A stretch of 64,000 nucleotides of DNA from an uncultured Ruegeria sp. (GTDB lineage Bacteria > Pseudomonadota > Alphaproteobacteria > Rhodobacterales > Rhodobacteraceae). The notes below the pieces were generated by a model. The model had not been told where the DNA came from. It did no database searches and saw only the letters and a list, made by a program, of their open reading frames with translations. A program made the position numbers and the translations under genes. This document shows positions 12,228 through 63,894 of this stretch, piece by piece. Where the stretch lies: positions 1 through 64,000 of the forward strand of contig NZ_CANMQQ010000010.1 of NCBI RefSeq assembly GCF_947500045.1, read 5' to 3'. How positions within the stretch are numbered: position 1 is the stretch's first letter; each line of letters begins with the position of its first letter.

Positions 12228-12357
12228 AAGGCGTGAGGACCTGCACCTATGGTGCTCGGCTCGAGTTTGCCTGAGGGTGCGTTCAACATCATTTTTGGCC
12301 GCGGCTCTGTTGTTGGTCTAAGATTTATCGAAGATCCGCGTAACAATGCGATTTTAT

Positions 12358-46210: not shown

Positions 46211-47608
46211 TCACTCACGATTCGGTCCAAGACGGTCTGGTCCGACAGTTCTGAACAAGGCGCCGGTCACAATATAGGGATCAAGGTCGGAAATTGCTTG
46301 CTGGCCTTTCCCAAATCCCGGGTCCGTACCGCAAAGCCGTGCAAAGCGAAGCGCCATTTCGGCCTGTATGTGCGGTTTCTGATGATGACCCTTTTCGGCA
46401 CAATTTCCAATGCCCTTAATCATGTCGGCCTTGGGCCGTGGTCGTTCCCCAGACCAAGTATATGCCAAAAAGCGGGCTTGTTGCTCAAGTGGGGTAAAAT
46501 AGCTGCCCGCTTGTTCCCATAGGCCCAGAAGGGCGAGGCCAGGAATATCCGGATGAAACGTGAATTCGTCCAGCTCAATCCCTGCCTCGGTCAGCTTTAG
46601 CGTGGTCTTCAGATCATCAGACAGGAAGGGAAGATCAAGACGAAATCCGGTGCCTGCTACAATGCCATCTACCTCAATTGGTTGGGCGTCTAGAAAGTGC
46701 AGGCACTGGCCGTCAATCCTGTCGGGCCAAGGGTAGGGATTTACGCGCCCCTCGGCGACAAGGTTGAGATAATGCTGCGATCCGGTAGCGCCAGCCTTGG
46801 CAAAATCGCTGTGCGGCTTTGGCGTTCCGTAACGGCTTGGATCACCTGCATGCTCCAGGATTTTGGCCTCGCTGTCGCGCAATAGAGCTTCCGGATCGTC
46901 GAGGGCGAGGCGCCCCCGCCGGTAGGTAAAAAGCCTGTGTTCGATTGGAGTGCCAAGGAACATCTTGGGGTTCACATATCGTTGGCGGCGCTGGCAAAGA
47001 TGTACCGAAGCTGCGCCCAGCATTGCCAGATCAGAGGCGATTTCAAGGGCCGAGATGGATCCTCCCAGGACAGCCACACGTTTGTCGCAGTACGCCATCG
47101 GATCCTTGTAGTTGAACGAATGCGCTATCCCCAGGCTGCCTGAAAAATCAATGTCGCCCCGAATATGTGGAATACTCGGCGCGTTGAACCGGCCTGTGGC
47201 GATCACAACCCTTGGTGCGCTGTCCGAGATTATGGTATCATTGGTCTTTAGGGTCAGGGCCCAATCGTCGCCCGCTTTTTCCAGGTGAACCAGACGGGTG
47301 TTGAAGGTAATCCGTTCCCTTATCGCAAACTGGGTTGCGAAATCTTCAAGATACTGCCCGACAGCTGTGTTGTGCGGGAAATGCGGCGTGTTTATGGGGA
47401 AATCGAGATCAGAGAAACATGTTACTTCGCGCACGGTATTCGAAACCATCTGCGGCCAGATACCCGAATTCGGATTGGTCCAGGACCATTGCCCCCCAAG
47501 CGCGCTGTGCGCCTCGTAAATCCGGGGCTGAAAGTTCCGCGATGTCAACCACCGCGCAGCAGCAAGGCCTGCTGGCCCGGCCCCGATGATGATCACATCT
47601 TGCGTCAA
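46211..47608 (-). CDS. Flavin-containing monooxygenase
   Basis: The 465-aa protein has the FAD motif GAGPAGLAAAR at the N-terminus, the FMO-type loop GGQWSWTN, the second Rossmann motif VAVLGGSISALEIASDL, and the ATG-like VDGIVAGTGF. Such enzymes hydroxylate N or S atoms or perform Baeyer-Villiger oxidation with NADPH and O2. It is the last gene of the seven-gene operon and overlaps the SDR gene by 4 bp. Confidence 0.87.
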   Translation of the reverse strand: MTQDVIIIGAGPAGLAAARWLTSRNFQPRIYEAHSALGGQWSWTNPNSGIWPQMVSNTVREVTCFSDLDFPINTPHFPHNTAVGQYLEDFATQFAIRERITFNTRLVHLEKAGDDWALTLKTNDTIISDSAPRVVIATGRFNAPSIPHIRGDIDFSGSLGIAHSFNYKDPMAYCDKRVAVLGGSISALEIASDLAMLGAASVHLCQRRQRYVNPKMFLGTPIEHRLFTYRRGRLALDDPEALLRDSEAKILEHAGDPSRYGTPKPHSDFAKAGATGSQHYLNLVAEGRVNPYPWPDRIDGQCLHFLDAQPIEVDGIVAGTGFRLDLPFLSDDLKTTLKLTEAGIELDEFTFHPDIPGLALLGLWEQAGSYFTPLEQQARFLAYTWSGERPRPKADMIKGIGNCAEKGHHQKPHIQAEMALRFARLCGTDPGFGKGQQAISDLDPYIVTGALFRTVGPDRLGPNRE

Positions 47609-48366
47609 TGAAAGTAGAGACCACCGCAGACGTTCAGCGACTGTCCTGTGACAAACCCGCTCAACTCTGATGCAAAGAAGACAGCGGGGCCGACAATATC
47701 TTCCGGCTCACCAAGCCGCCGCAACGCAGTCGTACCCGCCCAATAGTCTCGGTCTTCCTGCTTTTGAAGATTGTTCTGGCCCATCTCGGTCATGATGATC
47801 CCGGGGCAAAGCGCATTCACATAGATGCCCTGGTCGCCCAATTCCTGCGCGAAAACGCGGGTCAGGGTAATCGCCGTGGCCTTGGTCGCAGCATAATGGC
47901 CCTGTTGCGCGATCCCCTGTCGGCCTGCAAGCGATGCAATGTTCACAATCCGTCCCGCCTGCCGTGCTTTCATCTGGGGTAGGACCGCGTTCGTGCAAAG
48001 CAGGATGCCCTTTGCGTTCACGTCGAAATGCAGATCCCAGGTCTTTTCATCCAGTTCATCGAGGCGGCTCAGGACCAGGACACCGGCATTGTTGACCAAC
48101 ACATCAATCTGCCCCATCTGTTCGGTCGCTTCGGCAACGACAGCCTCAACCCGCGATTTGTCGGTCACATCAATGGGAATGGTCATGCCCTCACGCCCTG
48201 ACACCCGCACCTGTTCGGCAACCTTTGCAAGTGCATCACCTTCCCGCTCAAGGTCGGTCAAAACGATATCGGCGCCCGCAGCGGCCATTCCCTTGGCAAG
48301 CGCTGCACCGATGCCGCGTGATGCGCCAGTAATCATCACCGTTTTGTCTTTCAAATACATGTTCAA
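47605..48366 (-). CDS. Short-chain dehydrogenase/reductase
   Basis: The 253-aa protein is a classical SDR: TGASRGIGAAL, the NNAGVLVL strand, catalytic Ser in NIASLAG and YAATKA for Tyr/Lys, and LCPGIIMTEM. NAD(P)-dependent oxidation or reduction of a hydroxyl/keto group is expected. It overlaps the genes on both sides by 4 bp. Confidence 0.93.
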   Translation of the reverse strand: MNMYLKDKTVMITGASRGIGAALAKGMAAAGADIVLTDLEREGDALAKVAEQVRVSGREGMTIPIDVTDKSRVEAVVAEATEQMGQIDVLVNNAGVLVLSRLDELDEKTWDLHFDVNAKGILLCTNAVLPQMKARQAGRIVNIASLAGRQGIAQQGHYAATKATAITLTRVFAQELGDQGIYVNALCPGIIMTEMGQNNLQKQEDRDYWAGTTALRRLGEPEDIVGPAVFFASELSGFVTGQSLNVCGGLYFH

Positions 48367-49313
48367 TACTCCTTCAGTGGCCAGGCCCTCATATTCGCAA
48401 CTGTGGTGTCAAAATCCCGGAGGATGCCCTGACTACCCAACCCCTGGGCAACATGCGCCGCGACTGCGTTGGCGAAACCCGCTGTTTCGCGCAGGGACCA
48501 GCCTTTGGAGACGCCGGTGATCACGCCCGCCGTAAAGCTGTCACCGCATCCGGTCGTGTCGATAACGTCGATCTGATGGGCGGGCAGTTGAAAGGGCTTT
48601 CCTTCATCAGGGTCGACCCAGACGCCGTCGCCTTCCAAAGTGATCAGTGCGTTCTTCACGCCGCGGGCCTTGAACCAGGTCGCCACTTCGCCGGGGGTGC
48701 CGCCGCCCGCCATGCTACGCGCCTCTTCGATGGAAGGAACGAAATAATCGATATAGGGCAACAAGGGTTCCACAAGCCGGATGGTTTGATCGTTGGCAAG
48801 GATTAGATCAAAGACGGTTGTGCAGCCCCGCTCTTTGGCGCGCTTCAAAAGCGCAAGTGACGGCGCACCGTCAAACCCGGCCAGCAACCCGGTGCCGCCC
48901 AGATGGACGACCCGCGCGTCGCACGCCGCCTCAAGTTCTTCGTCGTCGAGAGTGAAGGTGTTTGAGGTCCCGGGCACAAAGAAAGCCGATCGCGCCCCAC
49001 ATGGTGCAATTGGCAGCATCGACATCGGAGATTGCGCCGCTGCGTTCCGGCTGATCAGGCTGGTGTCGATGCCGATACCTTGCATGGTCGCCGTTAGCCA
49101 ATCCCCCATGGCATCCCGGCCCAGTTCGGTCGCTACCCTGACCTTCAGGCCAAGCAAAGCACAGTCATAGGCTGTGGCCCCGGCGGTTCCTGCAACTGTC
49201 ATCGTCATTTGATCCACGAAGGTTGCGCCGCCGCGAGGGGGCATGGCATCAGCATGGGCGCAAAGCGTGTCCAGCACGACGAAACCGACGGCGCTCAGGT
49301 CGTATTGGGTCAT
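48363..49313 (-). CDS. PfkB-family carbohydrate kinase
   Basis: The 316-aa protein has the PfkB signatures: the N-terminal GG pattern (PPRGGATFVDQMTMTVAGTA), the middle helices, and the C-terminal DTTGCGDSFTAGVITG with the catalytic Asp (the usual GAGD is GCGD). It phosphorylates a sugar or similar polyol. Coupled by 4-bp overlap to a class II aldolase, it suggests a kinase-then-aldolase sequence. Confidence 0.9.
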   Translation of the reverse strand: MTQYDLSAVGFVVLDTLCAHADAMPPRGGATFVDQMTMTVAGTAGATAYDCALLGLKVRVATELGRDAMGDWLTATMQGIGIDTSLISRNAAAQSPMSMLPIAPCGARSAFFVPGTSNTFTLDDEELEAACDARVVHLGGTGLLAGFDGAPSLALLKRAKERGCTTVFDLILANDQTIRLVEPLLPYIDYFVPSIEEARSMAGGGTPGEVATWFKARGVKNALITLEGDGVWVDPDEGKPFQLPAHQIDVIDTTGCGDSFTAGVITGVSKGWSLRETAGFANAVAAHVAQGLGSQGILRDFDTTVANMRAWPLKEY

Positions 49314-49966
49314 TTTGTGTCCTCGTCTGAAAGCCCGTAGTCGGCAATCTTGTCGATCACATCCTGAATTTGCCGGTTGCTCAGCAAAGGCGGATCGCCC
49401 AGCATCAACGCGCCATGGTACTGGCGTGCCAGCGTTTCCAGTTCCTCGGCCCTCCAGTACGCCTGCGCGATGTCCCGGCCAAGCGCGATAGAGCCGTGGT
49501 GCTCCAGAAGGCAGGCGTGTCGATCCTCAAGTGCTGTGACGGCGTGATCTGACAGGTCTTGACTGCCGTAGATGGCATAGGGTGCGCAGCGTACGTTTGG
49601 CCCGCCAAAAATCGCCATCATATAGTGAACAGACGGGATTTCACGCCCGTGGATCGCAAGCACAGTGCAATAGGTCGGATGCGCATGCACAATTGCATTG
49701 ACTTCCGGACGCGCGACAAAGACGTCGCGATGAAACCGCCATTCCGACGATGGCGCAATCGGTCCCTCGGCCCGTCCGTCTAAGTGGACAGAGGCGATCT
49801 TGTCAGGTGTCAGGTCGCTGTAGGGGATCGAGGTGGGCGAGATCAGCATACCATCGTCATGCCGGATCGAAATATTGCCCGAGGTGCCCTGGTTCAGGCC
49901 TGAGCTGTTCATCAGCAGGCAATGGTCGATGATGGCCTGTCGCTTTTTGAGGGTTGGGTCATCCAT
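49310..49966 (-). CDS. Class II aldolase/adducin-family protein
   Basis: The 218-aa protein has the zinc-binding histidines in IVHAHPTYCTVLAIHG and LLEHHGSIALG, plus the N-terminal GLNQGTSGNISIR phosphate-binding loop, as in fuculose-phosphate aldolase. It probably cleaves a phosphorylated sugar, or decarboxylates/epimerises a related one, after action of the adjacent kinase. Confidence 0.9.
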   Translation of the reverse strand: MDDPTLKKRQAIIDHCLLMNSSGLNQGTSGNISIRHDDGMLISPTSIPYSDLTPDKIASVHLDGRAEGPIAPSSEWRFHRDVFVARPEVNAIVHAHPTYCTVLAIHGREIPSVHYMMAIFGGPNVRCAPYAIYGSQDLSDHAVTALEDRHACLLEHHGSIALGRDIAQAYWRAEELETLARQYHGALMLGDPPLLSNRQIQDVIDKIADYGLSDEDTK

Positions 49967-49977
49967 GCCAGACGTGT

Positions 49978-50862
49978 TTACAGCCCTTCCAGCGCCATAG
50001 TGTATGTGGTTGCTTCGCCTTCGACGCAGGGGTCACCGGCGCTGTCGACGATGCGGACCTTGAGTTTGCAAATGGGCTTGTCGTCGCGGACAGTTTCGAT
50101 TTCGACGCGGGCGGTCAGGTCTTCACCGACGCCCACGGCTTTGAGGAAGTTGAGGTTGGTGTTCAGAAAAACCGTGCCTGGGCCTGGCAGATCTTCGGCG
50201 ACGCAGGCATTCAGCATCCCTGTGGTCACACCGCCCTGCACGATCAACTTGCCGAAGGGCGTTTTCTTGGCCAGCGCTTCGTCATAATGGACCGGATTGC
50301 GGTCGCCGGTCATTTCGGTGAAGGCGTGAATGTCTTCCATTCGAGTGGTGCGTTTGCGTTCAATGGCGTCGCCAATTTTTGGCTTGCCATTCACGACACC
50401 GGCCCAGCCGTCCTTGCCTTGATCTGCCATGTCTTTGGCCTCCTCCTCGGTGAAATTATGGAAACAGGGCAGCACCCGACCGCCGATGTTGAAGGGCACA
50501 AAGTGCAGCGTCGCGCCGATCTGCGGCACCTGATCGCACAATATCGTGGACAACAGTGTCGGGCCTTCCTCAAGTGTGACCAGCCCCACTACATAGGGGG
50601 TGGCAGGGATCCAGCCTTCGTTGCCGGGTTTCCAGACCTCGCTGAAACTTTTCAGCCGCGCCACGCCGCTGACCGTCACCCAATCCAGCGCATCCGACCA
50701 GCAAACCGGGCAGCGGCCACGTGGATAGAAAACACGGGTGCCGCAGGTGCCGCACTTCTGCGTGGTCAGTACACCCGTTTCGGCACTGGCCCAGAAGGGT
50801 TTGGTCAAAGGGATTATGGTGGGGCCCGGAACAGAAATGCCGGCCAGTTTTTCGATATTCAT
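49978..50862 (-). CDS. DUF35 (zinc-ribbon/OB-fold) - MaoC hydratase fusion
   Basis: The 294-aa protein has two parts. Residues 1-145 are a DUF35 acyl-CoA-associated domain: a zinc ribbon with Cys37, Cys40, Cys51 and Cys54, then an OB-fold (YVVGLVTLEEGPTLLSTI). Residues 165-290 are a MaoC hot-dog domain with the R-hydratase residues DRNPVH (Asp187, His192) and KTPFGKLIVQGG. In cholesterol side-chain degradation ChsH2 has the same two domains in the reverse order and provides the DUF35 partner of the aldolase Ltp2. Here the next gene upstream is a thiolase-like protein without catalytic Cys, so an analogous hydratase-aldolase complex is likely. Confidence 0.88.
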   Translation of the reverse strand: MNIEKLAGISVPGPTIIPLTKPFWASAETGVLTTQKCGTCGTRVFYPRGRCPVCWSDALDWVTVSGVARLKSFSEVWKPGNEGWIPATPYVVGLVTLEEGPTLLSTILCDQVPQIGATLHFVPFNIGGRVLPCFHNFTEEEAKDMADQGKDGWAGVVNGKPKIGDAIERKRTTRMEDIHAFTEMTGDRNPVHYDEALAKKTPFGKLIVQGGVTTGMLNACVAEDLPGPGTVFLNTNLNFLKAVGVGEDLTARVEIETVRDDKPICKLKVRIVDSAGDPCVEGEATTYTMALEGL

Positions 50863-52022
50863 CCCTCAACCCCCAAGACCAGAGCCACTGCTTCGCTCAT
50901 CGTTGCGCCATTGCCGGTGATCAGCGCGGACATACAGTTTCGGATTTGTCTGTTTGGCGTGTCGCCACGCAACTGACGAACCGCCTCAACCACATGGGTC
51001 ATGCCGCCTGCGAGGTCAGGTTGGCCAAAACCCAATTGACCGCCGTGGGTGTTTATCGGTTGGTGTGCGTCCGGTCCCATACCGCCATTGTCGTTCAGCC
51101 AGTCCCCGAATTCGCCAGGCGCGCAAAGCCCGGCGTCTTCGATCGTTGCAGCGACCATGATCGTGTAGCAGTCGTAGAGCGAGAGAAAGTCAATGTCTCG
51201 GGCCTCCATCCCGGCCTGATGTAAAGCGCGCGCAATCGAGGGCTTTAACGGCCCCGATGTCAGGTCGGGGGCCTGACTGACCGCGCGGTGCGTGATTTTC
51301 TCGCCCGCGCCCCAAAGTTCGACCGGTTTGTGCGGGCCTTTGGCAGCACGCTCGGCTGTGGTGACGATGACCGCATCTCCACCTGCCACCGGCATCACGA
51401 TTTCGAACAAATGCAGGGGCGAGGCGACCACAGGAGAGGCCAGTACCTCGTCGACACTGGCGGGTTTGCCATAGAATATCGCATCCGGGTTCAACTGGGC
51501 ATTCGCCCGTGACCCGGCGGCGATGGCGGCGTAATCCTCGGGCCTGCAATCAAAGGCCGCCATATGGGCCTGCATCAGCAGGGCATAGGACGGGTTGGCC
51601 CCCGAGGCCCCAAAGGGCACATCGAACTCGCGGATCGGGTTGCGGTTCTTAGCGAACGGCGGATCTTCGTTGCGGTGGTTGCCAAGGACACAAAGAACGG
51701 TTTCGCATTGGCCCGCGGCAATGGCCCCCGCCGCACGCCAGATCATGCCGGGGCCTGAGGCGCCGCCTAAATCTATGACATTCGACATGGTGGGCTGCAT
51801 CCCAAAGTACTCGGCCACTGTGGCGGGGACATGCTGGGGCGTTTCGCCGACCTGAGGCCCGACCAGCAAACCGTCGATCTCGGCAGGGGACAGCCCTGCG
51901 TCTTCGGCTGCGAGGGCCGAAACCTCGATCAAAAGTTCCATGGTCGAAACTTCGTCGGTCCGCCGCTGGGGTTTCAATTCGCCAATACCACAGATAGCGC
52001 AGCGCGGGGCCAGATGCTTCAT
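50859..52022 (-). CDS. Thiolase-fold protein lacking the catalytic cysteines; probable CoA-aldolase
   Basis: The 387-aa protein is of the SCP2-thiolase type (ITHRAVSQAP, INTHGGQLGFGQPDLAGG, GGDAVIVTT). At the nucleophile position it reads LGGASG (residues 85-90) instead of GCASG, and the C-terminal Cys motif is ITGNGATMS, so both thiolase cysteines are gone. It retains the NTHGG His and a YDCYTI motif (Tyr283, Tyr286). These are features of the non-thiolytic branch such as Ltp2, which performs retro-aldol cleavage with a DUF35 partner; the DUF35-MaoC fusion lies next to it, overlapping by 4 bp. The chemistry is inferred from this comparison. Confidence 0.87.
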   Translation of the reverse strand: MKHLAPRCAICGIGELKPQRRTDEVSTMELLIEVSALAAEDAGLSPAEIDGLLVGPQVGETPQHVPATVAEYFGMQPTMSNVIDLGGASGPGMIWRAAGAIAAGQCETVLCVLGNHRNEDPPFAKNRNPIREFDVPFGASGANPSYALLMQAHMAAFDCRPEDYAAIAAGSRANAQLNPDAIFYGKPASVDEVLASPVVASPLHLFEIVMPVAGGDAVIVTTAERAAKGPHKPVELWGAGEKITHRAVSQAPDLTSGPLKPSIARALHQAGMEARDIDFLSLYDCYTIMVAATIEDAGLCAPGEFGDWLNDNGGMGPDAHQPINTHGGQLGFGQPDLAGGMTHVVEAVRQLRGDTPNRQIRNCMSALITGNGATMSEAVALVLGVEG

Positions 52023-53947
52023 AGGGCGTCCTCGCGCCTGAGAGCGCTAAATTCTTTCAGGCACTCGGGGTTGGCCAGCGAGCCAAGGTTCCGGACCGTG
52101 CCGCCGTTGACGGTTGTTCGCGCAGCACCTTCGACCCGTTTGCCATTGATAGTATAGGGTACGGCGCTGACCAGGTGGATACGCGCGGGTACATGGCGGG
52201 GCGATGCCTGGGTACGGATATCTCCCCGGATGCGCCGGATCAGATCGGGCGTGATCGCGGCACCGTTCACCGGCTGAATGGCCAGTACAACCTCCTCGTC
52301 GCCGTCACGGTCGGCGCCAAAGGCCAGAAAGTCCTGCACTTCGGAATAGGTTTCGCAAACCGCATAGATTTCCGAAATGCCGATCCGCACGCCACCGGGC
52401 TTTAGCGTGTTATCCGAGCGGCCATGTACATAGCCGCCGCCGGTATGCGTCATCTCGGCCACGTCGCCGTGGGTCCAAACCTCGGGCCGGTCGCCGAAAT
52501 AAGTGTCGCGGTAGCGTTGATCACCGCCATCGCCCCAAAAGGTCAGGGGCATCGAGGGGAAGGGTTCGGTGCAGACCAGATCGCCGCGTTGTCCGATCAC
52601 CGGCACGCCCCGATCATCCAGAACCGCCACAGCATGGCCCAGCGCCGGAACTGTCAATTGCCCGCGCCGGACCGGATGGATTGGTGATCCTATCAAGAAC
52701 GAGCCCAAAATTTCCGTTCCTCCCGAGATCGAGGCGAACATCATGTCTGTCTTGACCGCCTGATAGACCCAGTCGAACTGATGCGGCAAACAGGGGGCGC
52801 CGCAGACAAGAAGGGCACGCAGTGCCTCCAACTTGTGGTGGTGTTTGGGATGAAACGCTTCAGCCGCGAGTGTCGACAGATACTTTGGACTGACCCCCAG
52901 ATGCGTGACCTGTGCCCTGCCGGCCAGTGTCCACAAGCGGGCACAGTCCAGACCCTCGCCAGTTTTCAGGATCGGGGCCCCATCGTATAAAACGACCGCC
53001 GCTCCTGCCGCAAGCGCCGAGATATTCCAGTGATACATCATCCAGGCAGTGTTGGTGTACCAGATCACGCGATCCCCGGCGCGGACATCGCCGTGCAGGA
53101 CATGCTCTTTCAAATGTTGGAGCAGCACTCCCCCTGCCCGATGGACAATGGCTTTCGGTGCACCCGTTGTCCCGGAGGTGTAAAGCACATAGGCCGGATG
53201 GTCGAAGGCTAAACGGGCATAGGTCAAACGCGCATCGGAACCGAAATCTTCCTGACGGACGCTTTCGGTCATGTGCCCCCCCGACGACACGACAAGTTCA
53301 ATCGACGACACGGCGCGGCGCACTTTGGCCAGACGGTCTGAGATATCGTGATCCTTGCCGCCATAGCGGTAATTTGGTGAGGCAAACAACACTTTTGGGG
53401 CCACCTGACCGATCCGGTCTATGATCGCCGCCGCGCCGAAATCCGGGCTGCAGGATGTCCAGACAGCACCCACAGCCAGACTGGCCAGCGTTGCGACAAG
53501 CGCGTCAAGCGTATTGCCCTGAATGCCCGCGACACGGTCTCCAGGTGTGACGCCCGCAGCCAAAAGTCCTTTTGCCACTCGCGCCACCTTCTGGCGAAGC
53601 GCGCGACGGGTCACCTCTGCGTAGTGCCCGGCCTCATCCGCCGTACAGACAGCAATATCGCTGTCCGCACCGCGCTCAATCAGGTTTTCCGCTAGATTGA
53701 GACGCGCTTCGGGAAAAAACCGCGCCCCAGTCATCGGCGCCGCTTCGTTGCTCACGAATTTCGTCTGACCTGGCTCGCCCAGCACTTCGCAAAAGTCCCA
53801 GACCGATGACCAGAAGGCCCTCTTGTCGCTGACCGACCAACGATGCAAATCATCATACCGCCCGGCATCAAACCCACAGGCCTCCGCAAACCACGCCAGT
53901 GACGTGGAGGACGCATCGGTTGGGGTCCAAAGTATATCTTCGCTCAC
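52019..53947 (-). CDS. Acetoacetate-CoA ligase-like acyl-CoA synthetase
   Basis: The 642-aa protein has the AMP-binding motif LYTSGTTGAPKAIVH, the large N-terminal domain with DILWTPTDASSTSLAWF, and the length of acetoacetyl-CoA synthetase (AacS, about 650 aa). SGGTEILGSF and RSDNTLKPGGVRIG are also typical, and the late catalytic Lys is in YTINGKRVE. It is the first gene of the operon and would activate a carboxylic acid, or recover acetoacetate formed by the cleavage downstream. Confidence 0.92.
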   Translation of the reverse strand: MSEDILWTPTDASSTSLAWFAEACGFDAGRYDDLHRWSVSDKRAFWSSVWDFCEVLGEPGQTKFVSNEAAPMTGARFFPEARLNLAENLIERGADSDIAVCTADEAGHYAEVTRRALRQKVARVAKGLLAAGVTPGDRVAGIQGNTLDALVATLASLAVGAVWTSCSPDFGAAAIIDRIGQVAPKVLFASPNYRYGGKDHDISDRLAKVRRAVSSIELVVSSGGHMTESVRQEDFGSDARLTYARLAFDHPAYVLYTSGTTGAPKAIVHRAGGVLLQHLKEHVLHGDVRAGDRVIWYTNTAWMMYHWNISALAAGAAVVLYDGAPILKTGEGLDCARLWTLAGRAQVTHLGVSPKYLSTLAAEAFHPKHHHKLEALRALLVCGAPCLPHQFDWVYQAVKTDMMFASISGGTEILGSFLIGSPIHPVRRGQLTVPALGHAVAVLDDRGVPVIGQRGDLVCTEPFPSMPLTFWGDGGDQRYRDTYFGDRPEVWTHGDVAEMTHTGGGYVHGRSDNTLKPGGVRIGISEIYAVCETYSEVQDFLAFGADRDGDEEVVLAIQPVNGAAITPDLIRRIRGDIRTQASPRHVPARIHLVSAVPYTINGKRVEGAARTTVNGGTVRNLGSLANPECLKEFSALRREDAL

Positions 53948-54078: not shown

Positions 54079-54109
54079 TTATTTATGATTATGATCAGAA
54101 TACTGTCAA
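54079..54109 (-). promoter_or_regulatory. Promoter of the seven-gene operon with embedded palindromic operator
   Basis: On the minus strand TTGACA (54104-54109) is followed, after 16-18 bp, by CATAAA/TAAATA (about 54080-54087). The spacer contains TGATCATAATCA (minus strand; 54086-54097), an imperfect palindrome matching the two sites at 57017 and 57083. An operator in the spacer would block RNA polymerase. It lies about 140 bp upstream of the ligase gene start. Confidence 0.55.
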
Positions 54110-54466
54110 TAAGAAATACAATATTTATTATGGGATTCAGTGCCTAAATTATGGACATAATCATATGGTTCAGACTAAGCGCATCCAGACCCGTCATCAT
54201 GGTGACGGTGCAGCGCGGTCATCCCTGTTGGTGTGCTGTAATTTCTAAGTTTTCCTTCGTTTGACCAAGGGGGTCGCGACAATCGTGAGCATCTTGTCCC
54301 ATAGGACACAAAACCTAGGGCGCATAGTTTGCCCTGATACATCAATGCTTCTCAAGGTAAGACGCCCGTTTAACTGAGTTCGTCTTGGGGTTGTCGATAG
54401 TGGATCGCCTACCCAGAGCGCGAGGCAGGTAGGTGCAGTTCACAGGCTGGGCATCCGCTCAGCGTG
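54110..54466. other. Interval without a recognised gene
   Basis: Apart from an AT-rich stretch (54110-54170) upstream of the promoter, I see no gene, hairpin terminator or repeat here. It separates the seven-gene operon from the esterase gene, which runs in the same direction. Confidence 0.4.
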
Positions 54467-55357
54467 CTAAATTACACTTTCGAGAAACATGCAGCAGCGT
54501 GCAATGGCCGCGTCAGCTTCTGGAAGGTTGCCGGCAAAGAACTGAAAGTCGTGAAACATCCCGGGCACAAGTTCGAACCGCACATCTGCACCTTGGGTCG
54601 CGGCTTTGTCAGACAGGCGATGCCCATCATCGCGTAGTATATCGTTTTCGCTTGCTTGCACGTAGATCGGCGGCAGTCCCGCTAGCGAACCGTGAAGTGG
54701 CGAGGCAATTGGGTCTTTGTCATCGACGCCTGCCAAATAGTGGTTTGCTCTGATGGCCAACCGTTCCTCTGAAACCACAACATCTCGCGCAGCAACCGTT
54801 TGCACGGATGGCGACGAAAGTGACAGATCCAGCCAAGGTGCCAGCAAAACTGCGGCCAGTGGCAACTTTTCCTTCATGTCGCGGAGTTTCATGCAGGCAG
54901 ACAGCGCCAGTCCGCCACCCGCTGAGTCGCCGACGATCACCGTGCGGCCCTCGTTATGTCGCTCGATGACATCTAACATCACAGCCACACATTGATCGAC
55001 GGCCGTGGGAAAAGGGTGTTCCGGTGCCAGCCCGTAGTTGGGGATCACGACAGAGGCTTTGCAGGCCGCCGCAAAATGGCCGGCAAACCGGTGATGCGAA
55101 TGAGCGGAGCCAACACAAAAACCGCCGCCATGCAAAAAGACGATGTCGTAGTCGGCCTGCTTGTCTGGCGGGTTCGCTACAATCGATGGGATACCTGCAA
55201 TCACCTGAGGGTCAAAACGCACATCTGATGGGATGCCGGTCATTTCGACCATTTTTTCGGTATTTAGCCGTTGTTGCAGGATATCGTCAGGCCCGAGACC
55301 ATCGTTGTCCCGTTGGAACTGCAATTCAAGCGCTTTGGCCTCTGGACTAAGCGTCAT
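54467..55357 (-). CDS. Alpha/beta hydrolase, hormone-sensitive-lipase (GDXG) type esterase
   Basis: The 296-aa protein has the HGGGFCVGS oxyanion motif, the nucleophile elbow GDSAGGG, and later Asp/His positions (ENDILRDDGHRLSDK; GMFHDF). It hydrolyses carboxylic esters. Its start overlaps the sulfatase stop by 4 bp, so the two act together, possibly on a molecule bearing both sulfate and carboxylate esters. No signal peptide, hence cytoplasmic. Confidence 0.88.
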   Translation of the reverse strand: MTLSPEAKALELQFQRDNDGLGPDDILQQRLNTEKMVEMTGIPSDVRFDPQVIAGIPSIVANPPDKQADYDIVFLHGGGFCVGSAHSHHRFAGHFAAACKASVVIPNYGLAPEHPFPTAVDQCVAVMLDVIERHNEGRTVIVGDSAGGGLALSACMKLRDMKEKLPLAAVLLAPWLDLSLSSPSVQTVAARDVVVSEERLAIRANHYLAGVDDKDPIASPLHGSLAGLPPIYVQASENDILRDDGHRLSDKAATQGADVRFELVPGMFHDFQFFAGNLPEADAAIARCCMFLESVI

Positions 55358-56940
55358 GATCTTTGCCTGGGATTTTCTGATGCACCTTCACCGCGACCAT
55401 CACTGCGCCGCAACGGCGATATCGTATCAAGGCCAAGGCGCTCGAATTGTTCGCCAGGACATCCTTCCTCGGCCATGCGGGCGCACAAAAGCCCCAGCAA
55501 TCGTCCACGCTGCTCGGGATGGCTGTGCCAAAGATTTTTCTTTTGGCCTGGATCGTCCACTCGGTTGAATAGGAAATCCTCGTGGGTTCTGGGATCAATT
55601 TTGATCGGCGTTTTCCACATCGGATAAGGAACTGTGCTATCAAACTGATCCTGATCCACCGGCGGAGGGGGGGCTTTGCCCATGCGCCCATCCACAGGGT
55701 TGTCGACGATCAATGGCGTCGAAATCATGGTCGAATATGTATAAAGTGGCTTGCCGTCGACCGGCGCTTTGAACAATGTCCATTCGCCGTCTGTGATGCA
55801 AATGCCCTGACCAAAAGTTCCATAGGTCAAGTCCGCACGTGCCTCTTTGCCGCCGTCCAACACCGAAAGGAAGCTTTGCGAGTGCCGGGTGTTTTCGGGC
55901 GCCTTGCCACCTGAGGCCTCAACCAAAGTCGCAAATAGGTCAACGTTCTGGACCAAAGCGCTAACGCGCCGCCCGTCCCCTTTTGACTTTGGGTGCCAGA
56001 CGATCAGCGGGATATTCGCATGGCTGTCATAGTGGGGGAATTGTTTACCGAAACAGCCGCGTTCGCCCAAGTCGTGACCGTGATCTGTGGTGAACACGAC
56101 CATGGTATCTTCCCAAAGGTTCAGAGCAGACAACTTGTCAAAGAACTTGCCCAACCAGATGTCGACCATGGTGGTTTTACCGTAATACTGCGCCTTAAGG
56201 AAAGCCAGCTCTTCGGGTGTGGTTTGTGCGAAAAAGGCGTCCTGATCGGCATAAACCTGATAGGGAGGCCAGATGTTATAGTCGTCCGCCGTCCCTTCCA
56301 GATCGCCAGTGTACATATTGTCGTAGGGTGGCGGGACGTGGAACGGTTCATGCACGTCAAAGCTTTCGACCTGCAAAAAGAACGGGCTACGGTCTGCGTA
56401 TTTGTCAAGCCATTCATTGGCCGCGGTAAACGTTTTGGCCGGAAAGAAATCGCACTCGTCCTTGAATTCTTTCACGTTTTCCCAGTACTGGCGCATGTGA
56501 TAGGTCGAGCGGAATTCGCTCATCTTGTCGACCCATTTGGGGACATCGCCGTTAGTGGGCAGTTCGTAATAATCGGTCTCATGGCCCCGGATCATGTTCA
56601 ATGACATGAAGGATTCCATATAGCCGTTCGCGGTTTCTTCCCAATAGTGATAGTGATCCGTCACCATTGCGGTGTTGTAGCCCTGCTTCTGGATTTCCTG
56701 TGGCAGGCGTGGATCGAATATCTCCAAAGGCCCCCAGGGACGCCACAAAAACTCCTTGCGCCCGGAAAACAGCTCTCGGCGGGCCGGCATACAGGGCAGG
56801 CTGGAGATGAAATAGTTGTCAAATACGTGGGATTTGGCGGCAAAATCTGTCAGGGCTGGGGTCTTGCATTCAGTTTGGTCGTTGTAGATGCGCAAGGCTT
56901 CTTTGTTTAAACTATCGACCAGGATAAGAATAATGTTCAT
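55354..56940 (-). CDS. Cytoplasmic sulfatase with formylglycine site
   Basis: The 528-aa protein has the sulfatase signature CMPARRELFSGR, with CxPxR at residues 50-54, whose Cys is converted to formylglycine by an activating enzyme. Metal-binding residues are visible in ILILVDS (Asp9) and FTTDHGHDLGE. There is no signal peptide, unlike most polysaccharide sulfatases, so the substrate must be imported first, which fits the divergent ABC importer. It starts 226 bp from the importer's binding-protein gene with palindromic operators between them. A phosphonate monoester hydrolase activity cannot be excluded from sequence alone. Confidence 0.88.
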   Translation of the reverse strand: MNIILILVDSLNKEALRIYNDQTECKTPALTDFAAKSHVFDNYFISSLPCMPARRELFSGRKEFLWRPWGPLEIFDPRLPQEIQKQGYNTAMVTDHYHYWEETANGYMESFMSLNMIRGHETDYYELPTNGDVPKWVDKMSEFRSTYHMRQYWENVKEFKDECDFFPAKTFTAANEWLDKYADRSPFFLQVESFDVHEPFHVPPPYDNMYTGDLEGTADDYNIWPPYQVYADQDAFFAQTTPEELAFLKAQYYGKTTMVDIWLGKFFDKLSALNLWEDTMVVFTTDHGHDLGERGCFGKQFPHYDSHANIPLIVWHPKSKGDGRRVSALVQNVDLFATLVEASGGKAPENTRHSQSFLSVLDGGKEARADLTYGTFGQGICITDGEWTLFKAPVDGKPLYTYSTMISTPLIVDNPVDGRMGKAPPPPVDQDQFDSTVPYPMWKTPIKIDPRTHEDFLFNRVDDPGQKKNLWHSHPEQRGRLLGLLCARMAEEGCPGEQFERLGLDTISPLRRSDGRGEGASENPRQRS

Positions 56941-57016
56941 TGTTTTCCTCGCTATAGCCGTCCTGATCGCATTGCCCGCTTTTGCCGCTGGTTTCGGGCG
57001 GACATCACTTCTGTCT

Positions 57017-57028
57017 TGATTATAATCA
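57017..57028. promoter_or_regulatory. Perfect palindrome TGATTATAATCA, candidate GntR-UTRA operator
   Basis: A perfect 12-bp palindrome that contains TATAAT on both strands; on the minus strand this TATAAT can serve as the -10 box of the sulfatase operon. It matches 10 of 12 positions of the site at 54086-54097. Confidence 0.6.
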
Positions 57029-57082
57029 GAAACAAGTCAAGCAAGGTAATGTTAGAAAACTCGAATTGACGTGATCTTATTT

Positions 57083-57094
57083 TAGTTATAACCA
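57083..57094. promoter_or_regulatory. Palindromic site TAGTTATAACCA overlapping the importer promoter
   Basis: The core GTTATAAC is a perfect palindrome, and the 12-mer agrees with the site at 57017 in 9 positions. TTGACG (57066-57071) and TATAAC (57087-57092) form a plus-strand promoter in which the -10 box lies within this site, so binding would block transcription of the ABC operon. Confidence 0.55.
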
Positions 57095-57165
57095 GAAAAT
57101 ACAAAAGTGAATCGGGCCGCACCGTATCGGCGGGTGCCGCGATGATACAATTCGGGAGGAAGACT

Positions 57166-58191
57166 ATGGCAAACTCAAAAACAAGCTACATGAGCCGGCG
57201 CTCAGTCCTGCGTGCAGGCGCGGCGGCTTTGGCGGCTCCAACGTTCTTTGTTGGCAAAGCTCATGCGGCGAACGAAAAACTCAAGGTTGGCTTGTTGCCC
57301 GGTTTCGCATTTGGGCTTTACTGGGTCATTCAAGAAGAGGGCTTCGCCCCGGGCGTCGAGATGGAATACGACATCTTCCCGTCTGGCCCACCGGCCATCG
57401 AGGCCATGGTCGGCGAATCCGTCGAAGTCATCACAGTTGGTTCGGTGCCGCCGCTTATCGCAATGTCACGCAAGATTGCAGATTTCCGCGAGATTTCGAT
57501 TGTAACGGACGCAGGCCCCTTGTTTACCATTGTCGGCAAACCCGGAATAAACGGGCTTGCGGATCTTGAAGGCAAGCGGGTTGGTGTGACGACCGGCTCG
57601 AACTTTGACTACTTCCTTGACACAGCCCTTGAGCTTGCAGGCCTGAAGGGTCTGGAGATGCAGCGTGTCAATATGGAACCGATGGACGGCGGAGCCGCCC
57701 TGATCGCAGGCGCAATCGATGCAACCTTGCCGTCATTGGCGGCAAAAGCCGCAATCTTCGATGCTCTGCCGGAAGCCAGCATGGTTGTTGACGGCGCCGA
57801 ACTTCAAGGCGCGCAACGTCCAAAAATCCTCGACATGCTTATGACGACGCAGCAGGTCATTGATGCCAAGGAAGAAGCCTTGGTTGAAATCGTCAGCGCA
57901 TATCATTCGAAAGCAATTCCGATGATGCGCGAAGACTATGACGGCACGGTTGAACTGATCACGCGTTGGCTGAAAGGTGTTGGTCGTCCAAACGTGACAA
58001 CAGATGATGTCGCGCCTCTTCTGGGTGTGACAGATTATCAAGACCGTCAGGGTATCAAAGATGCCTATGCTAGCGGCGAAATTAAGGATGCGTTCGAACT
58101 GCAGTCTAACTTCCTGCTAAAGAACGAGTCGATTGGCGAGTTGCCAGACCTTGACGCGCTTGTAGACGATACAATCGTCAAAAAGATCTAG
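57166..58191 (+). CDS. Periplasmic binding protein of a sulfonate/taurine-type ABC importer (Tat-exported)
   Basis: The 341-aa protein begins with a Tat signal (SRRSVLRAGAAALAAPTFF) and belongs to the SsuA/TauA/NrtA group (KVGLLPGFAFGLYWVIQEEG; FPSGPPAIEAMVGESVEV). The ATG at 57166 has GGGAGGA 6 nt upstream, better than the start at 57142. The group binds sulfonates, sulfate esters, nitrate and related anions. With the divergent cytoplasmic sulfatase the natural guess is a sulfate ester. Confidence 0.87.
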   Translation: MANSKTSYMSRRSVLRAGAAALAAPTFFVGKAHAANEKLKVGLLPGFAFGLYWVIQEEGFAPGVEMEYDIFPSGPPAIEAMVGESVEVITVGSVPPLIAMSRKIADFREISIVTDAGPLFTIVGKPGINGLADLEGKRVGVTTGSNFDYFLDTALELAGLKGLEMQRVNMEPMDGGAALIAGAIDATLPSLAAKAAIFDALPEASMVVDGAELQGAQRPKILDMLMTTQQVIDAKEEALVEIVSAYHSKAIPMMREDYDGTVELITRWLKGVGRPNVTTDDVAPLLGVTDYQDRQGIKDAYASGEIKDAFELQSNFLLKNESIGELPDLDALVDDTIVKKI

Positions 58192-58215
58192 GTCGCGGCA
58201 AAGCCACCAAGAATA

Positions 58216-58265
58216 GGCGCAAAAAGCGCCGTGCGCTCCGGTTGTGCTTGCAATTCGGAGCGCGC
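58216..58265 (+). other. Two tandem RNA hairpins between binding-protein and permease genes
   Basis: GGCGC/GCGCC (58216-58220 and 58226-58230, loop of five A) is followed at once by GCGCTCCG/CGGAGCGC (58233-58240 and 58256-58263, 15-nt loop, extendable by two pairs). No U-run follows, so they are more likely RNA-stabilising structures or a partial attenuator than a terminator. Such structures commonly raise binding-protein expression relative to the permease. Confidence 0.5.
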
Positions 58266-58398
58266 CAAATCTGACCCGGTCACAGAAATTCGTACGCAGA
58301 ACAGGCCGAGGTATAGCAGAAGCTTGCCGTATGGTTGCGTACGAAGAAGAAACGCGGAAAGTGTTGGCGTAGACCACGCTCCAACGGGAAGAGGCTTC

Positions 58399-59175
58399 AT
58401 GGAACAACTAAAGGCATTTTTGACAGGTCGGTTGGTCCTGGGCGTTCTAGCCGTCTCGGTGGTCCTCTTGGCTTACCATCTGATAACCCTGAAGCCTGGA
58501 AACAACCCAGCCCTGCTTCCACCAATACCGTTAATCGTCACCTCTTTTTTCAAGACACTGGGCTCAGGCGCACTTCAGGAAGCACTTTTTGCCAGTCTTT
58601 ACAGGATTTGTCTGGGATTTGTCATCGGGACAACATGCGCGCTGGTTCTGGGATGTCTCGTCGGCTGGTACAAAACAATCGAATACATCGTGGACCCTTT
58701 GATCGAAGCCGTCCGTCCGATCCCGCCGCTGGCATATATTCCGATCATCATCATCTGGTTCGGGATCGAGGAATTCAGCCGCGTTCTATTGATCTCGATC
58801 GCTTGCTTCATGGTGTGCGTGGTCAACGTGATTGCAGGCATGAAGAACGTTCCCCAAGTTTATGTCGATGCGGCTTCGACGATGGGCGCGTCACGGTTTC
58901 AGGTGTTTCGGACGGTCGCAATCCCGGCTGCCACACCGTTTATCATCACCGGTTATCGCATCGCACTCGCTGCGGCGTGGACAGCCCTTGTCGCCGCCGA
59001 ACTTATTGCCGCTCCAAGTGGTCTTGGTTTTATGTTGCAAGAAGGGCGACGCTACTTTCTGACAGATCAGGTCATGATGATCATCGTCATTATCGGAGCC
59101 TGCGCGTTTATAATGGACCGCACTTTTCGTTCCGTTCAACGGCGTTTAATGGTTTGGTCGGAGGCTCGCGAATAA
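58399..59175 (+). CDS. ABC importer permease, SsuC/TauC type
   Basis: The 258-aa protein has six hydrophobic segments and the cytoplasmic EAA loop in the form DAASTMGASRFQVFRTVAIP. IGTTCALVLGCLVGW and PIPPLAYIPIIIIWFG are also characteristic of this permease group. The ATG at 58399 follows GGGAAGAGG, while the open frame from 58231 has no RBS. The stop is directly followed by the ATPase start. Confidence 0.9.
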   Translation: MEQLKAFLTGRLVLGVLAVSVVLLAYHLITLKPGNNPALLPPIPLIVTSFFKTLGSGALQEALFASLYRICLGFVIGTTCALVLGCLVGWYKTIEYIVDPLIEAVRPIPPLAYIPIIIIWFGIEEFSRVLLISIACFMVCVVNVIAGMKNVPQVYVDAASTMGASRFQVFRTVAIPAATPFIITGYRIALAAAWTALVAAELIAAPSGLGFMLQEGRRYFLTDQVMMIIVIIGACAFIMDRTFRSVQRRLMVWSEARE

Positions 59176-59931
59176 ATGTCCGAGATCAAAGTCAAAGACC
59201 TTACTCACACTTTCGGAGAGGGCACAATCGAAGCCCTGACCGTTTTGGAGGATATCAATCTCAATATTCCATCCGGTAGCTTCACCTCGATTGTGGGAAC
59301 ATCTGGCTGTGGCAAGTCCACCCTTCTTAAGATGATGGCCGGATTGTTCGATCCGTCCGACGGCGAAATGACCCTGGATGGGAACTTGATCAAGGGCACG
59401 GATCGCAAGCGCGGCATGGTCTTTCAACAGGATGCTGTATTTCCCTGGATGACGGTCGCAAAAAACATCTCCTACGGGCCCCGGATACACGGGGCATCCA
59501 AGGCCGAGCAGGCCGCCGCCGAGGAAAAATGGGTGGAAGCCGTCGGCCTTAAAGGATTTGAGCATCGCTGGCCGCGCGAGTTGTCGGGCGGTATGCGAAA
59601 ACGTGTCGATATCGGTCGGGTCTACGCCAACGATCCTGACGTCTTGCTAATGGATGAACCGTTCGGCGCGCTCGACGCGCAAACCAAAGAGCGGTTGCAA
59701 ACCGATTTGCTGGACACCTGGCGCGAGACTCAGAAAACAGTTGTCTTCGTAACCCACGACCTGGAAGAAGCGATTTTCCTGTCGGACCAGATCGTTGTGA
59801 TGTCTGCACGTCCCGGCCGCATTCGGCACATTGAAGATGTATCGCTTCCACGCCCCAGAACGAACGAAATGCGGCTGACGTCCGAGTTTCTGGATATCAA
59901 GCGCAAATTGTGGAATATGCTCGACCATTGA
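59176..59931 (+). CDS. ABC importer ATPase, SsuB/TauB type
   Basis: The 251-aa protein has Walker A GTSGCGKST, the Q-loop VFQQDAVFPW, signature LSGGMRKRV, Walker B DVLLMDEPFGALD and the switch VTHDLEEA. It powers the permease encoded just upstream. Confidence 0.95.
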   Translation: MSEIKVKDLTHTFGEGTIEALTVLEDINLNIPSGSFTSIVGTSGCGKSTLLKMMAGLFDPSDGEMTLDGNLIKGTDRKRGMVFQQDAVFPWMTVAKNISYGPRIHGASKAEQAAAEEKWVEAVGLKGFEHRWPRELSGGMRKRVDIGRVYANDPDVLLMDEPFGALDAQTKERLQTDLLDTWRETQKTVVFVTHDLEEAIFLSDQIVVMSARPGRIRHIEDVSLPRPRTNEMRLTSEFLDIKRKLWNMLDH

Positions 59932-59955
59932 TTTTTGAAAGGCGGATACAGCGGC

Positions 59956-60786
59956 ATGCAGGCGGGTAACAAAAAGCGAAAAATTGCTGGTCGACCAAGC
60001 TTTCAGGATGCCGAAGCGAATGCGCTTGAACTTTTTCGGGATCAGTGCCGCCATGTGACTTTGTCGCGCAAGCAGACGATGCCTCTCTGGGAACAATTGT
60101 ACCTGCATCTGGAAAGCATGATCCTCAGTGGAAAGCTGGTGGTCGGCAGTCGAATTCCTCCCGAGCCGATCCTTTGCGAGATATTCGAGGTGTCAAAGCC
60201 CGTAGTGCGGCATGCCATTTCGGCTTTGGCGACCAAGGGTCTGGTCGTGAAAATCCCGCGCAAGGGTATGTTTGTGGGTGAGCGTCCGAAAGAAAGCGGG
60301 TTTATCACGTCAAATATCAGCCTGTTTGATGATATGTTGTCGCGCGGTGCTTCCATCGACACGCAGACGTTCGAATTTGTGCGCGAGGCAGCGGACTCGC
60401 AAGAACGAACCAATCTGGGCCTAGAGGTCAACTCTGAAGTCATTCGGATCACCCGCGTCTTTAGGATCGACGGCCATGCGATCACACATTCGGTCATGTC
60501 CTTTCCGGCAGACCAGCTTGAGGGCTTTGACCACGACAGCTTTCGCGGCGGTTCGATCCACAACGTTCTGGCGACCAAATTCGGCCTGAAGATTGTGCGC
60601 GCGGATCGATGGTTGAACGCTGAAACACCCCCCAAATTCGTGCTGGATCGCATGGGTATTCCGGAACCCCGGTCGATGATTTTTATTGAATCCATCGGTT
60701 ACCAAGACGACGGGAATCCCCTTGAATACTACCGGTCGTACTACGATTCGTCGGTCGTACGCATCCGCGTTTCGGTTTCAGATTAA
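59956..60786 (+). CDS. GntR-family regulator with UTRA effector domain (HutC subfamily)
   Basis: The 276-aa protein has an N-terminal extension of about 40 residues, the winged helix (MPLWEQLYLHLESMILSGKL; EIFEVSKPVVRHAISALATK) and a UTRA domain (LEVNSEVIRITRVFRIDGHA; IESIGYQDDGNPLEYYRSYY). It follows the ATPase gene by 24 bp. HutC-type proteins bind palindromes such as those at 54086, 57017 and 57083, so this is the likely repressor of the sulfatase, importer and seven-gene operons. The ligand would be a pathway intermediate. Confidence 0.9.
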   Translation: MQAGNKKRKIAGRPSFQDAEANALELFRDQCRHVTLSRKQTMPLWEQLYLHLESMILSGKLVVGSRIPPEPILCEIFEVSKPVVRHAISALATKGLVVKIPRKGMFVGERPKESGFITSNISLFDDMLSRGASIDTQTFEFVREAADSQERTNLGLEVNSEVIRITRVFRIDGHAITHSVMSFPADQLEGFDHDSFRGGSIHNVLATKFGLKIVRADRWLNAETPPKFVLDRMGIPEPRSMIFIESIGYQDDGNPLEYYRSYYDSSVVRIRVSVSD

Positions 60787-61194: not shown

Positions 61195-61553
61195 ATGCTG
61201 CCAGTTGTATGGAGTGCAAAAAAGAGAAACCCGCTCGACATAGATTTCCGCATAGATCCTAAACGGTTCAAAGGTGAATCTGGTGGCATCGTCATTGCGA
61301 ACCCAAATGCACCTACGGGTATTGCCATTGAGCTTTCAGAAATAGAGATAATACTACGATCAAATCCTGATATCGTTGTTCTTGTTGAAGAAGCATATGT
61401 TGATTTTGGCGCTTCAAGCAGCGTTAGCCTGGTTCCGCAATACGACAATCTGATAGTCGTTCAGACGTACTCGAAATCAAGAAGTCTTGCAGGGCTTCGC
61501 TTCGAAATGGCAGTCGCACATCCGGATCTTATTGACGCTCTCACCAGAGTAAA
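61195..61553 (+). pseudogene. Internal fragment of a histidinol-phosphate aminotransferase-like gene
   Basis: The piece contains [29 protein letters not shown] and [17 protein letters not shown] with the PLP-binding Lys, all typical of HisC and its paralogues. The N-terminal and C-terminal thirds are missing. The frame is cut at 61554 by the repeat element whose end is GTCACTGTACCCTAA. Confidence 0.8.
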
Positions 61554-61554
61554 T

Positions 61555-61860
61555 GTCACTGTACCCTAAAAAATCAGAATCTTGTCTGAAATTGCCCCGC
61601 AAAATCAATGCAGGTTTGTGCCTTTAATTTTCATATTGTACCGTTAATTGTAGTACTGCACCATTAATTGCCAGACAGTCGCGCTTGTGGAAAACTTTAC
61701 TCTCCCTTTGTAGCGCACCGACGGATTTCGCCTTGCTACCAAGGACACAAGTATGAGTTCCGACCTGCAGCATCGCCTGCGGAAGTATTGCAATTAAGGG
61801 TACAGATTCGCCTCAGAATACTCCAAATCCGCAGAATCTGATTAATTAGGGTACAGTGAC
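61555..61860. repeat. 306-bp non-coding element with 15-bp perfect terminal inverted repeats
   Basis: GTCACTGTACCCTAA at 61555-61569 is repeated in inverse at 61846-61860, and the match extends, with two mismatches, through AATCAGA. The interior holds further copies of TGTACC/GGTACA and TAATTG boxes but no gene. It looks like an internally deleted insertion sequence or MITE. A partial left end occurs at 29043-29123 and a diverged internal part at 63895-64000. Confidence 0.65.
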
Positions 61861-61868
61861 AGCAATCA

Positions 61869-62219
61869 ATGAAGCGTCCAACTCAGAAGTCCTGGAGAAT
61901 GGACGAGACTTACATACGTGTTCGCGGCAAGTGGATGTATTTCTATCGAGCAGTCGACAAAGCGGGGAACACCCTTGATTTCATGCTGTCCGAGCGACGA
62001 AATCGCCCAGCAGCTACTAGGTTCTTTGCCAAAGCACTGTCGTCAAAGGGGATCCCAAACAAAATCATCATAGACAAGAGCGGCGCCAATGCTGCGGGCA
62101 TTCGAGCAGTGAACAGAGTCCTGAAGCGGTTCGGTTGCCCAGCCAAAGTACAGACGATCAGGTCCAAATTTTTGAACAACATGATCGAACAGGATCACAG
62201 ATTCTGCTGGCGCTTTTGA
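61869..62219 (+). pseudogene. IS6-family transposase, central fragment
   Basis: The frame runs from KRPTQKSWRMDETYIRVRGK (first catalytic Asp) through IIIDKSGANAAGI (second Asp) to FLNNMIEQDHRF, just short of the end. The N-terminal HTH is missing and the last residues are replaced by CWRF. Remaining interval 62220-62404: nothing recognised. Confidence 0.8.
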
Positions 62220-63655: not shown

Positions 63656-63894
63656 GCCGCGATCCACTATTCAAACAAGTCAGTACAGTGCAGTCATTTT
63701 TGAGGTACATCCTACCCGACCAGCCGTTCAAACCCAACCTTGGGAAAAACGACGCATGAGAACTGGATATAGCAAGCTCGACCTACCTTGTTCGCAATTC
63801 GAAAGAACGGAGAACTCTGAGAATTGTGCCTGTTTCGACCAGCAGCTTAGCGGCGTGTCACGGTGCCCTGATTTGTTGGACACTCGCTTCAGAA

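Follow-up and report, generated by a model that had tools for sequence, protein, structure and literature searches.

Does one local repressor govern uptake, desulfation and breakdown of a sulfate ester in an uncultured Ruegeria sp.? The question arises from a stretch of 64,000 nucleotides (positions 1 to 64,000 of contig NZ_CANMQQ010000010.1, assembly GCF_947500045.1; hereafter the window) that holds a sulfatase-esterase operon, a divergent operon for an importer and a GntR-UTRA regulator, and a seven-gene operon running from an acetoacetate-CoA ligase through a class II aldolase to a flavin monooxygenase. A reading of the letters alone had proposed that one 12-mer palindrome recurs at the promoters of all three operons, which the regulator would then induce together (hereafter the original prediction). 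Our analysis supports this three-operon regulon and adds to it one more operator and a paired architecture. Judged by sequence comparison, a local GntR-UTRA repressor very probably controls the import, desulfation and breakdown operons jointly, via four operators in two pairs.

The three palindromes lie where they had been placed: TGATTATAATCA at 57017-57028 (0 mismatches), TGATTATGATCA at 54086-54097 (1) and TAGTTATAACCA at 57083-57094 (3). At up to 3 mismatches, the 12-mer has 20 matches in the 64-kb window against a shuffle mean of 15.57, and 13 of 100 shuffles reach 20. This is not above chance, so the original prediction offered thin evidence for the 57083 site, which needed support from outside the window. 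The longer form of the motif is an 18-bp palindrome, TTCTGRTTATAAYCAGAA, with arms beyond the 12-mer. We scored it with two matrices: (i) 13 sites from relatives, none from the window; and (ii) the 7 sites of loci L012-L015, described below. The first ranked positions 57080, 54083, 57014 and 54149 first to fourth in the 64 kb (23.1, 22.7, 21.9 and 15.0), with the fifth at 9.2; the second, used alone, put the identical four on top (19.1, 18.5, 16.2 and 12.4), with the fifth at 9.6. We take the three palindromes to be genuine because the relatives-only matrix ranks them at the top, with a gap between 15.0 and 9.2. The same ranking uncovered a fourth palindrome, TGGACATAATCA at 54152-54163, which the original prediction had missed. 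In their 18-bp form the operators, none of which is assigned a strand, are:

54083..54100, operator A, TTATGATTATGATCAGAA, before the seven-gene operon; rank 2 by the relatives-only matrix
54149..54166, operator D, TTATGGACATAATCATAT, 66 bp from A; weaker; rank 4
57014..57031, operator B, TCTTGATTATAATCAGAA, sulfatase side of the divergon; rank 3
57080..57097, operator C, TTTTAGTTATAACCAGAA, importer side of the divergon, 66 bp from B; rank 1 by the relatives-only matrix

The spacing is 66 bp in both pairs (57014/57080 and 54083/54149). Local shuffles reached the score of operator D at 10 of 928,000 positions; multiplied by the four places open to a second site (66 or 67 bp away, to the left or right), this gives a chance of approximately 4e-5.

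A sulfatase search for relatives gave 113 candidate loci, 80 of which were kept, and in 13 of the 80 the importer is divergent from the sulfatase. Locus L009 and genome G328 were taken as one genome, likewise L014 and G014, and each was counted once; a sulfatase search of 385 genomes of the class returned only the own genome at E<=1e-160. An orthologous regulator, 45-70% identical over the aligned part, is present at seven of the 13 divergent loci (L009-L015), on the importer strand and next after the ATPase gene, 6 to ~340 bp away by tblastn edges. Six of these seven carry two sites in the divergon, spaced by 66 bp (L009, L011) or 67 bp (L010, L012, L013, L015), and L014 has a single recognisable site, TTCTGGGTACCCGCAGAA. 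In gapped global alignments the stretches between the two sites are 40-69% alike, and the site lies anywhere from 51 to 112 bp from the sulfatase start. A constant inter-site distance with a varying distance to the gene is thus found in six of seven relatives, and the 66-67 bp occur twice in the window.

Under a matrix of the three window sites, nothing in the locus outscores the two divergon sites in L009, L010, L011 and L015; those sites rank 1 and 6 in L012 and 2 and 4 in L013, and the single site of L014 ranks 4. No shuffle of the same intergenic region (0 of 500) reaches the observed pair score in the six paired relatives; the score of L014 is low, and 1 of 500 shuffles reaches it. Both window regions also give 0 of 500, with a matrix derived from those very regions. 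As controls we used all six remaining divergent loci (L018, L020, L021, L033, L036 and L049), which are without a close regulator orthologue: the site pair occurs in none, and 38 to 500 of 500 shuffles reach their scores. Absence of the motif from the same promoters in relatives had been named as grounds for rejecting the regulon, and at the divergon the comparison is favourable. A regulator search in the genomes of L018, L033, L036 and L049 found no relative at E<=1e-20. The genomes of L020 and L021 hold regulators 40-43% identical, and there the same divergon carries a single related palindrome, CTAGTAA(T/G)TACTAG, instead (at 9925 and 9929, respectively); the operator sequence seems to have shifted together with the regulator.

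Each palindrome had also been predicted to overlap, or lie between, the -35 and -10 boxes of a promoter. This holds in part: each 12-mer has a correctly oriented TTGAC box nearby, at 6, 6 and 11 bp, but a consensus scan pairs none of them with a -10 box. The boxes are:

54104..54109, minus strand, TTGACA, likely the -35 box of the seven-gene operon; separated by 6 bp from the A 12-mer, an N6 layout shared with the sulfatase side of L009, L010 and L011
57035..57040, minus strand, TTGACT, likely the -35 box of the sulfatase-esterase operon; separated by 6 bp from the B 12-mer
57066..57071, plus strand, TTGACG, likely the -35 box of the importer operon; separated by 11 bp from the C 12-mer

On the importer side, five of the seven relatives have GTCAA 8-9 bp from the 18-mer, and the remaining two have TTCAA. 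The right half of the ligase pair has the sulfatase-promoter layout (TTGACA, 6 bp, site), whereas the left half has kept its operator and lost its -35 box, reading CTGAAT where the divergons carry GTCAA or TTCAA. Matches of the consensus scan, on the plus strand, are CTGTCA-17-TATTAT at 54103-54131, pointing away from the ligase operon; CGGACA-16-TATAAT at 56999-57026, overlapping site B and pointing toward the importer; and another at 56906-56934. Promoter and terminator scans did not settle the promoters.

The operons had been delimited correctly. A 4-bp overlap joins the sulfatase and esterase genes, gaps of 0-39 bp separate the importer and regulator genes as called, and the seven-gene operon, from 53947 down to 46211, has 4-bp overlaps at five of its six junctions and an 11-bp gap at the sixth. 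The genes are:

55354..56940, minus strand, S1-type sulfatase (PF00884; 124 bits, cut-off 25), with CMPAR in SLPCMPARRELFSGR
54467..55357, minus strand, alpha/beta-hydrolase esterase (PF07859), by domain match
57142..58191, plus strand, SsuA/TauA-like substrate-binding protein, by domain matches
58231..59175, plus strand, TauC-like ABC permease, by domain matches; true start probably further in
59176..59931, plus strand, TauB-like ABC ATPase, by domain matches
59935..60786, plus strand, GntR-UTRA regulator; ATG start possible at 59956; N-terminal GRPSF arm
52019..53947, minus strand, acetoacetate--CoA ligase (TIGR01217; 669.5 bits, above the cut-off of 520.9)
50859..52022, minus strand, SCP-x-type thiolase, by domain and family matches
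49978..50862, minus strand, ChsH2-like zinc ribbon/OB fold fused to a MaoC hydratase, by domain match
49310..49966, minus strand, FucA-like class II aldolase, by domain and family matches
48363..49313, minus strand, PfkB-type sugar kinase
47605..48366, minus strand, SDR dehydrogenase
46211..47608, minus strand, FMO-type flavin monooxygenase

The regulator has PF00392 (55.6 bits, cut-off 27) followed by PF07702 (85.5 bits, cut-off 23.8), the HutC/UTRA architecture of GntR proteins. The sulfatase contains C-x-P-x-R, which we take to be the S1 sulfatase motif, and falls below the cut-off of the choline-sulfatase family TIGR03417 (115.4 bits against 433.45); the aldolase likewise falls below that of L-fuculose-1-phosphate aldolase, TIGR01086 (226.1 against 400.25). 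Searches of PDB with the cluster proteins pointed to no substrate.

What ties the divergon to the aldolase and CoA genes is gene order in the relatives. Five of the seven (L009, L010, L011, L012 and L015) carry the aldolase, kinase, SDR and FMO genes on the sulfatase strand, downstream of the sulfatase gene; in L011 and L015 the ligase, thiolase and OB/MaoC genes come between sulfatase and aldolase. L015 also has a frame resembling an MFS transporter by eye between MaoC and aldolase, and the gap between sulfatase and aldolase in L012 is ~300 bp. L014 has none of the aldolase/CoA genes within the stretch examined around its divergon. In L013, sulfatase and aldolase are separated by a second GntR gene (35% identical), with more palindromes in front of each; given this paralogous gene and its own palindromes (11510-12760; palindromes at 11654 and 12675), the cluster has two repressors whose operators are nearly alike. 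In the window, sulfatase and ligase are separated by the esterase gene and 519 bp, and the 519-bp gap carries the second operator pair. The simplest history, which we infer from this layout, would be a duplication of the control region at the time the operon split. When the own genome was searched for a second copy of the 519-bp region, only the region itself was returned.

A plasmid search extended the comparison to a wider clade. It gave 11 records, from which eight loci were read (L144-L151, two of them unannotated) and H5, H10 and H11 were left out. Their regulators are 37-44% identical to that of the window. By annotation or tblastn, seven of the eight loci have one flank with an SDR, a class II aldolase and a PfkB-like kinase, and another with an acetoacetate-CoA ligase and thiolase; the five annotated loci among those seven have a sugar importer. 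R. lusitanum (L146) has a nucleoside-type importer, a nucleoside hydrolase, an aldolase, rpiB and a kinase. Using a matrix built from window and divergon sites only, we found a close copy of the palindrome (e.g. TTCTGGTTATAACCAGAT) in the gap between the regulator and the SDR/aldolase genes at all eight loci. This copy is the top match across the 14.7-kb locus in seven cases; in L146 it comes second to one that precedes the nucleoside importer. In L144, L147 and L148 the motif is TTCTGGTTATAACCAGAT itself, a GT-TATA-AC palindrome. L148 (Mesorhizobium sp. B1-1-8) has a further close copy before its ligase operon, right after TTGACA, as in the window. The same kind of palindrome lies between regulator and SDR-aldolase in L091 (genome G150; regulator 37% identical). 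From these comparisons, the aldolase and kinase appear to be old partners of the regulator, and the sulfatase and SsuABC-type importer a later front end; given such partners, the desulfated product would be sugar-like. As separate observations, a different palindrome around ACCGACCGATCGGT lies between the ligase operon and the divergent TetR gene of L144 (4955-5130), and half-sites like CCGTTCGGT lie upstream of the ligase in L145 (1380-1760).

The clade also shares a protein feature. All 20 of its regulators that were read (window, L009-L015, L020, L021, L091, L144-L151) carry a GRP motif (AGRPSF, RGRPRY) in an N-terminal arm that precedes the helix-turn-helix (HTH), and the three other UTRA proteins of the own genome that were read in frame lack this arm. 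The arm resembles an AT-hook or a TetR-type arm, and it may recognise AT-rich sequence at the flanks of the 18-bp palindrome. The recognition helix starts with VSK in the window, L009, L010 and L011 and with VSR in L012-L015. This K/R difference seems to go with the half-site sequence; it is confounded by kinship, and we make no claim of it.

We searched the own genome (4.46 Mb, 43 contigs) for further sites. The 12-mer occurs once exactly and four times with one mismatch; two of these five places fall in this region and the other three lie elsewhere (C2:56561, C5:85889 and C6:100507). We set those three aside, as they are inside open reading frames (ORFs) as listed. The 18-mer TTCTGRTTATRAYCAGAA, at up to 2 mismatches, finds only three of the operators described here, plus C7:200522 (TTCTGGGTAAAACCAGAA). 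This last place is the best outside match; it lies between two larger ORFs, inside a 124-amino-acid frame, with no link to the pathway, and was rejected. With a broader 16-mer that also fits the relatives (TCTGRKTATNAYCAGA), a divergon site is best or equal-best in six of seven relatives' genomes (tied in L010 and L011), and not in that of L014. The results fit a local regulator, with a few further targets possible.

Among known systems, the closest parallel is the HutC subfamily as treated in the portion of Suvorova et al. (2015; PMC4494728) available to us. There, most HutC-type sites are palindromes with 4 nucleotides between GT and AC, and constant spacing in regulator-bearing divergons is read as co-operative control; the window genes are not named in that portion. 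The window resembles those double-site divergons in its GntR HTH and UTRA domains, its AT-rich palindrome, the regulator gene inside one arm of the divergon, the constant distance between two sites, and a GT-4nt-AC core, seen at site C and at some loci of the wider clade. The core is AT-N4-AT at A and B and is lacking at D. The window differs in having a longer, 18-bp palindrome, TTCTG/CAGAA arms, AT for GT at the perfect site, and a second pair of equal spacing before a further operon. That the window regulon is a fresh example of a HutC-type GntR divergon with double sites is well supported. PhnF-type regulators give the best NCBIfam match of the window regulator (TIGR02325, 91.8 bits), but this is below the curated cut-off of 156.8, and no phosphonate genes are among those annotated in the window. 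YvoA/NagR and DasR, with solved structures, have the same domain order (E 1e-13 to 2e-11), whereas the window clade has ~30-40 extra N-terminal residues with the GRP motif. The rhizobial and Sulfitobacter class II aldolase-kinase clusters (L144-L149) share the regulator clade, operator, aldolase and kinase, and all but R. lusitanum also share the SDR and the ligase-thiolase-OB-MaoC set; unlike the window, they have a sugar or nucleoside importer rather than a sulfatase with an SsuABC-type importer, and no 66-bp pair is among their best matches.

As a rule, UTRA repressors are released by a metabolite of their pathway. From the sites, their spacing and conservation, their co-occurrence with the regulator and the gene linkage, we infer the following mode of control. 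The GntR-UTRA repressor, encoded by the last gene of the importer operon, would bind the 18-bp palindrome at four operators, one pair in the importer/sulfatase divergon and the other before the acetoacetate-CoA-ligase...aldolase-kinase-SDR-FMO operon. The 12-mer cores lie 6 or 11 bp downstream of the TTGAC boxes, over the presumed spacer/-10 region, so that a bound dimer should block RNA polymerase and with it initiation. By analogy, the repressor would be released by a pathway product, most likely a sugar-like intermediate formed once the sulfate is removed; import, desulfation and breakdown would then be induced together, and the regulator would control its own operon. Release of UTRA repressors by a metabolite is also described in the portion of PMC4494728 cited above. 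More tentatively, the sulfatase and SsuABC-type importer may have joined an older aldolase/kinase sugar-cleavage regulon. The cluster would then be a pathway, as yet undescribed, for a sulfated compound akin to a sugar; its regulator would sense a phosphorylated or free intermediate common to the whole clade and act through paired operators 66-67 bp apart. We would put this at somewhat under an even chance. A literature search, limited to search listings, found no description of this gene set or of a sulfatase regulon of such kind, and PMC8053113 does not mention GntR.

Several observations weigh against the three-operon regulon, and some of them favour other explanations. Operator D is weak, with 5 of 9 pairs complementary, and its side lacks a -35 box. 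No sulfatase relative was found with the same split layout, which leaves the third promoter without an exact counterpart among them. The separate ligase-kinase unit in G014 has no site, and the clusters of G312, G351 and G051, which have no regulator match at E<=1e-30, have no upstream site (a 17.8 match in G351 lies downstream of the kinase). Among the plasmid loci, the ligase operon of the annotated rhizobial plasmids L144, L147 and L149 is divergent from a TetR gene with no such site among the best matches, and L145 has only a weak match (9.8) before the ligase. The regulator might on this account govern the importer/sulfatase divergon only, the pair at the ligase operon being a decaying copy of the divergon without function. 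We think this unlikely: operator A matches B and C in strength and keeps the TTGACA-N6-site layout of the sulfatase promoter, D is retained at exactly 66 bp, the same genes follow the sulfatase in L011 and L015, and the ligase operon of L148 has its own site.

The remaining counterpoints are that the lone site of L014 is weak by the window matrix (9.0, reached by 13 of 500 shuffles), that the TTGAC boxes have no consensus -10 match, and that with the 16-mer position 54084, at one mismatch, ties with at least three places elsewhere in the own genome. Moreover, that genome encodes seven UTRA proteins, another of which could in principle bind, and three of the four window sites deviate from the usual HutC-type GT-4nt-AC. 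It is nevertheless very improbable that the palindromes belong to a different transcription factor, such as one of the other six UTRA proteins: the motif tracks the window-type regulator across the relatives and the wider clade, where L144, L147 and L148 do have the GT-AC form, and no good match (best 12.0) lies near the other six UTRA genes, with ~3.4 kb searched at each. How the joint repressor would use its paired sites is more evenly balanced. The constant 66-67 bp could reflect the mere geometry of back-to-back promoters, with the two sites acting alone, and we give this nearly even odds; most sites adjoin their own -35 box, and the distance is ~6.3 turns at 10.5 bp per turn, which is no whole number and does not indicate simple in-phase looping. 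Yet the spacing persists where one of the -35 boxes cannot be made out by eye (on the sulfatase side in L012, L013 and L015; left of the ligase pair). By analogy with the HutC divergons, we place co-operation between the paired sites a little above even.

Just beyond the regulator, 61195-62219 holds fragments of a class I/II aminotransferase (truncated) and of an IS240-type transposase. In the one same-genus genome searched, there was no regulator match at E<=1e-30 and no kinase match at E<=1e-80. Given the IS240-type fragment and the absence of a match in that genome, the cluster may have been gained by transfer. The window also encodes an RTX-repeat protein with a Hint domain (62405-63667).

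The comparison turns a guess from sequence into a regulon that is open to testing, and it ties the sulfatase/importer pair to a downstream pathway. The split between old partners (aldolase, kinase) and front end (sulfatase, importer), if it holds, narrows the search for the sulfate ester. For the family, the nearly unvarying 66-67 bp would offer a clean case for studying how UTRA repressors act in pairs.

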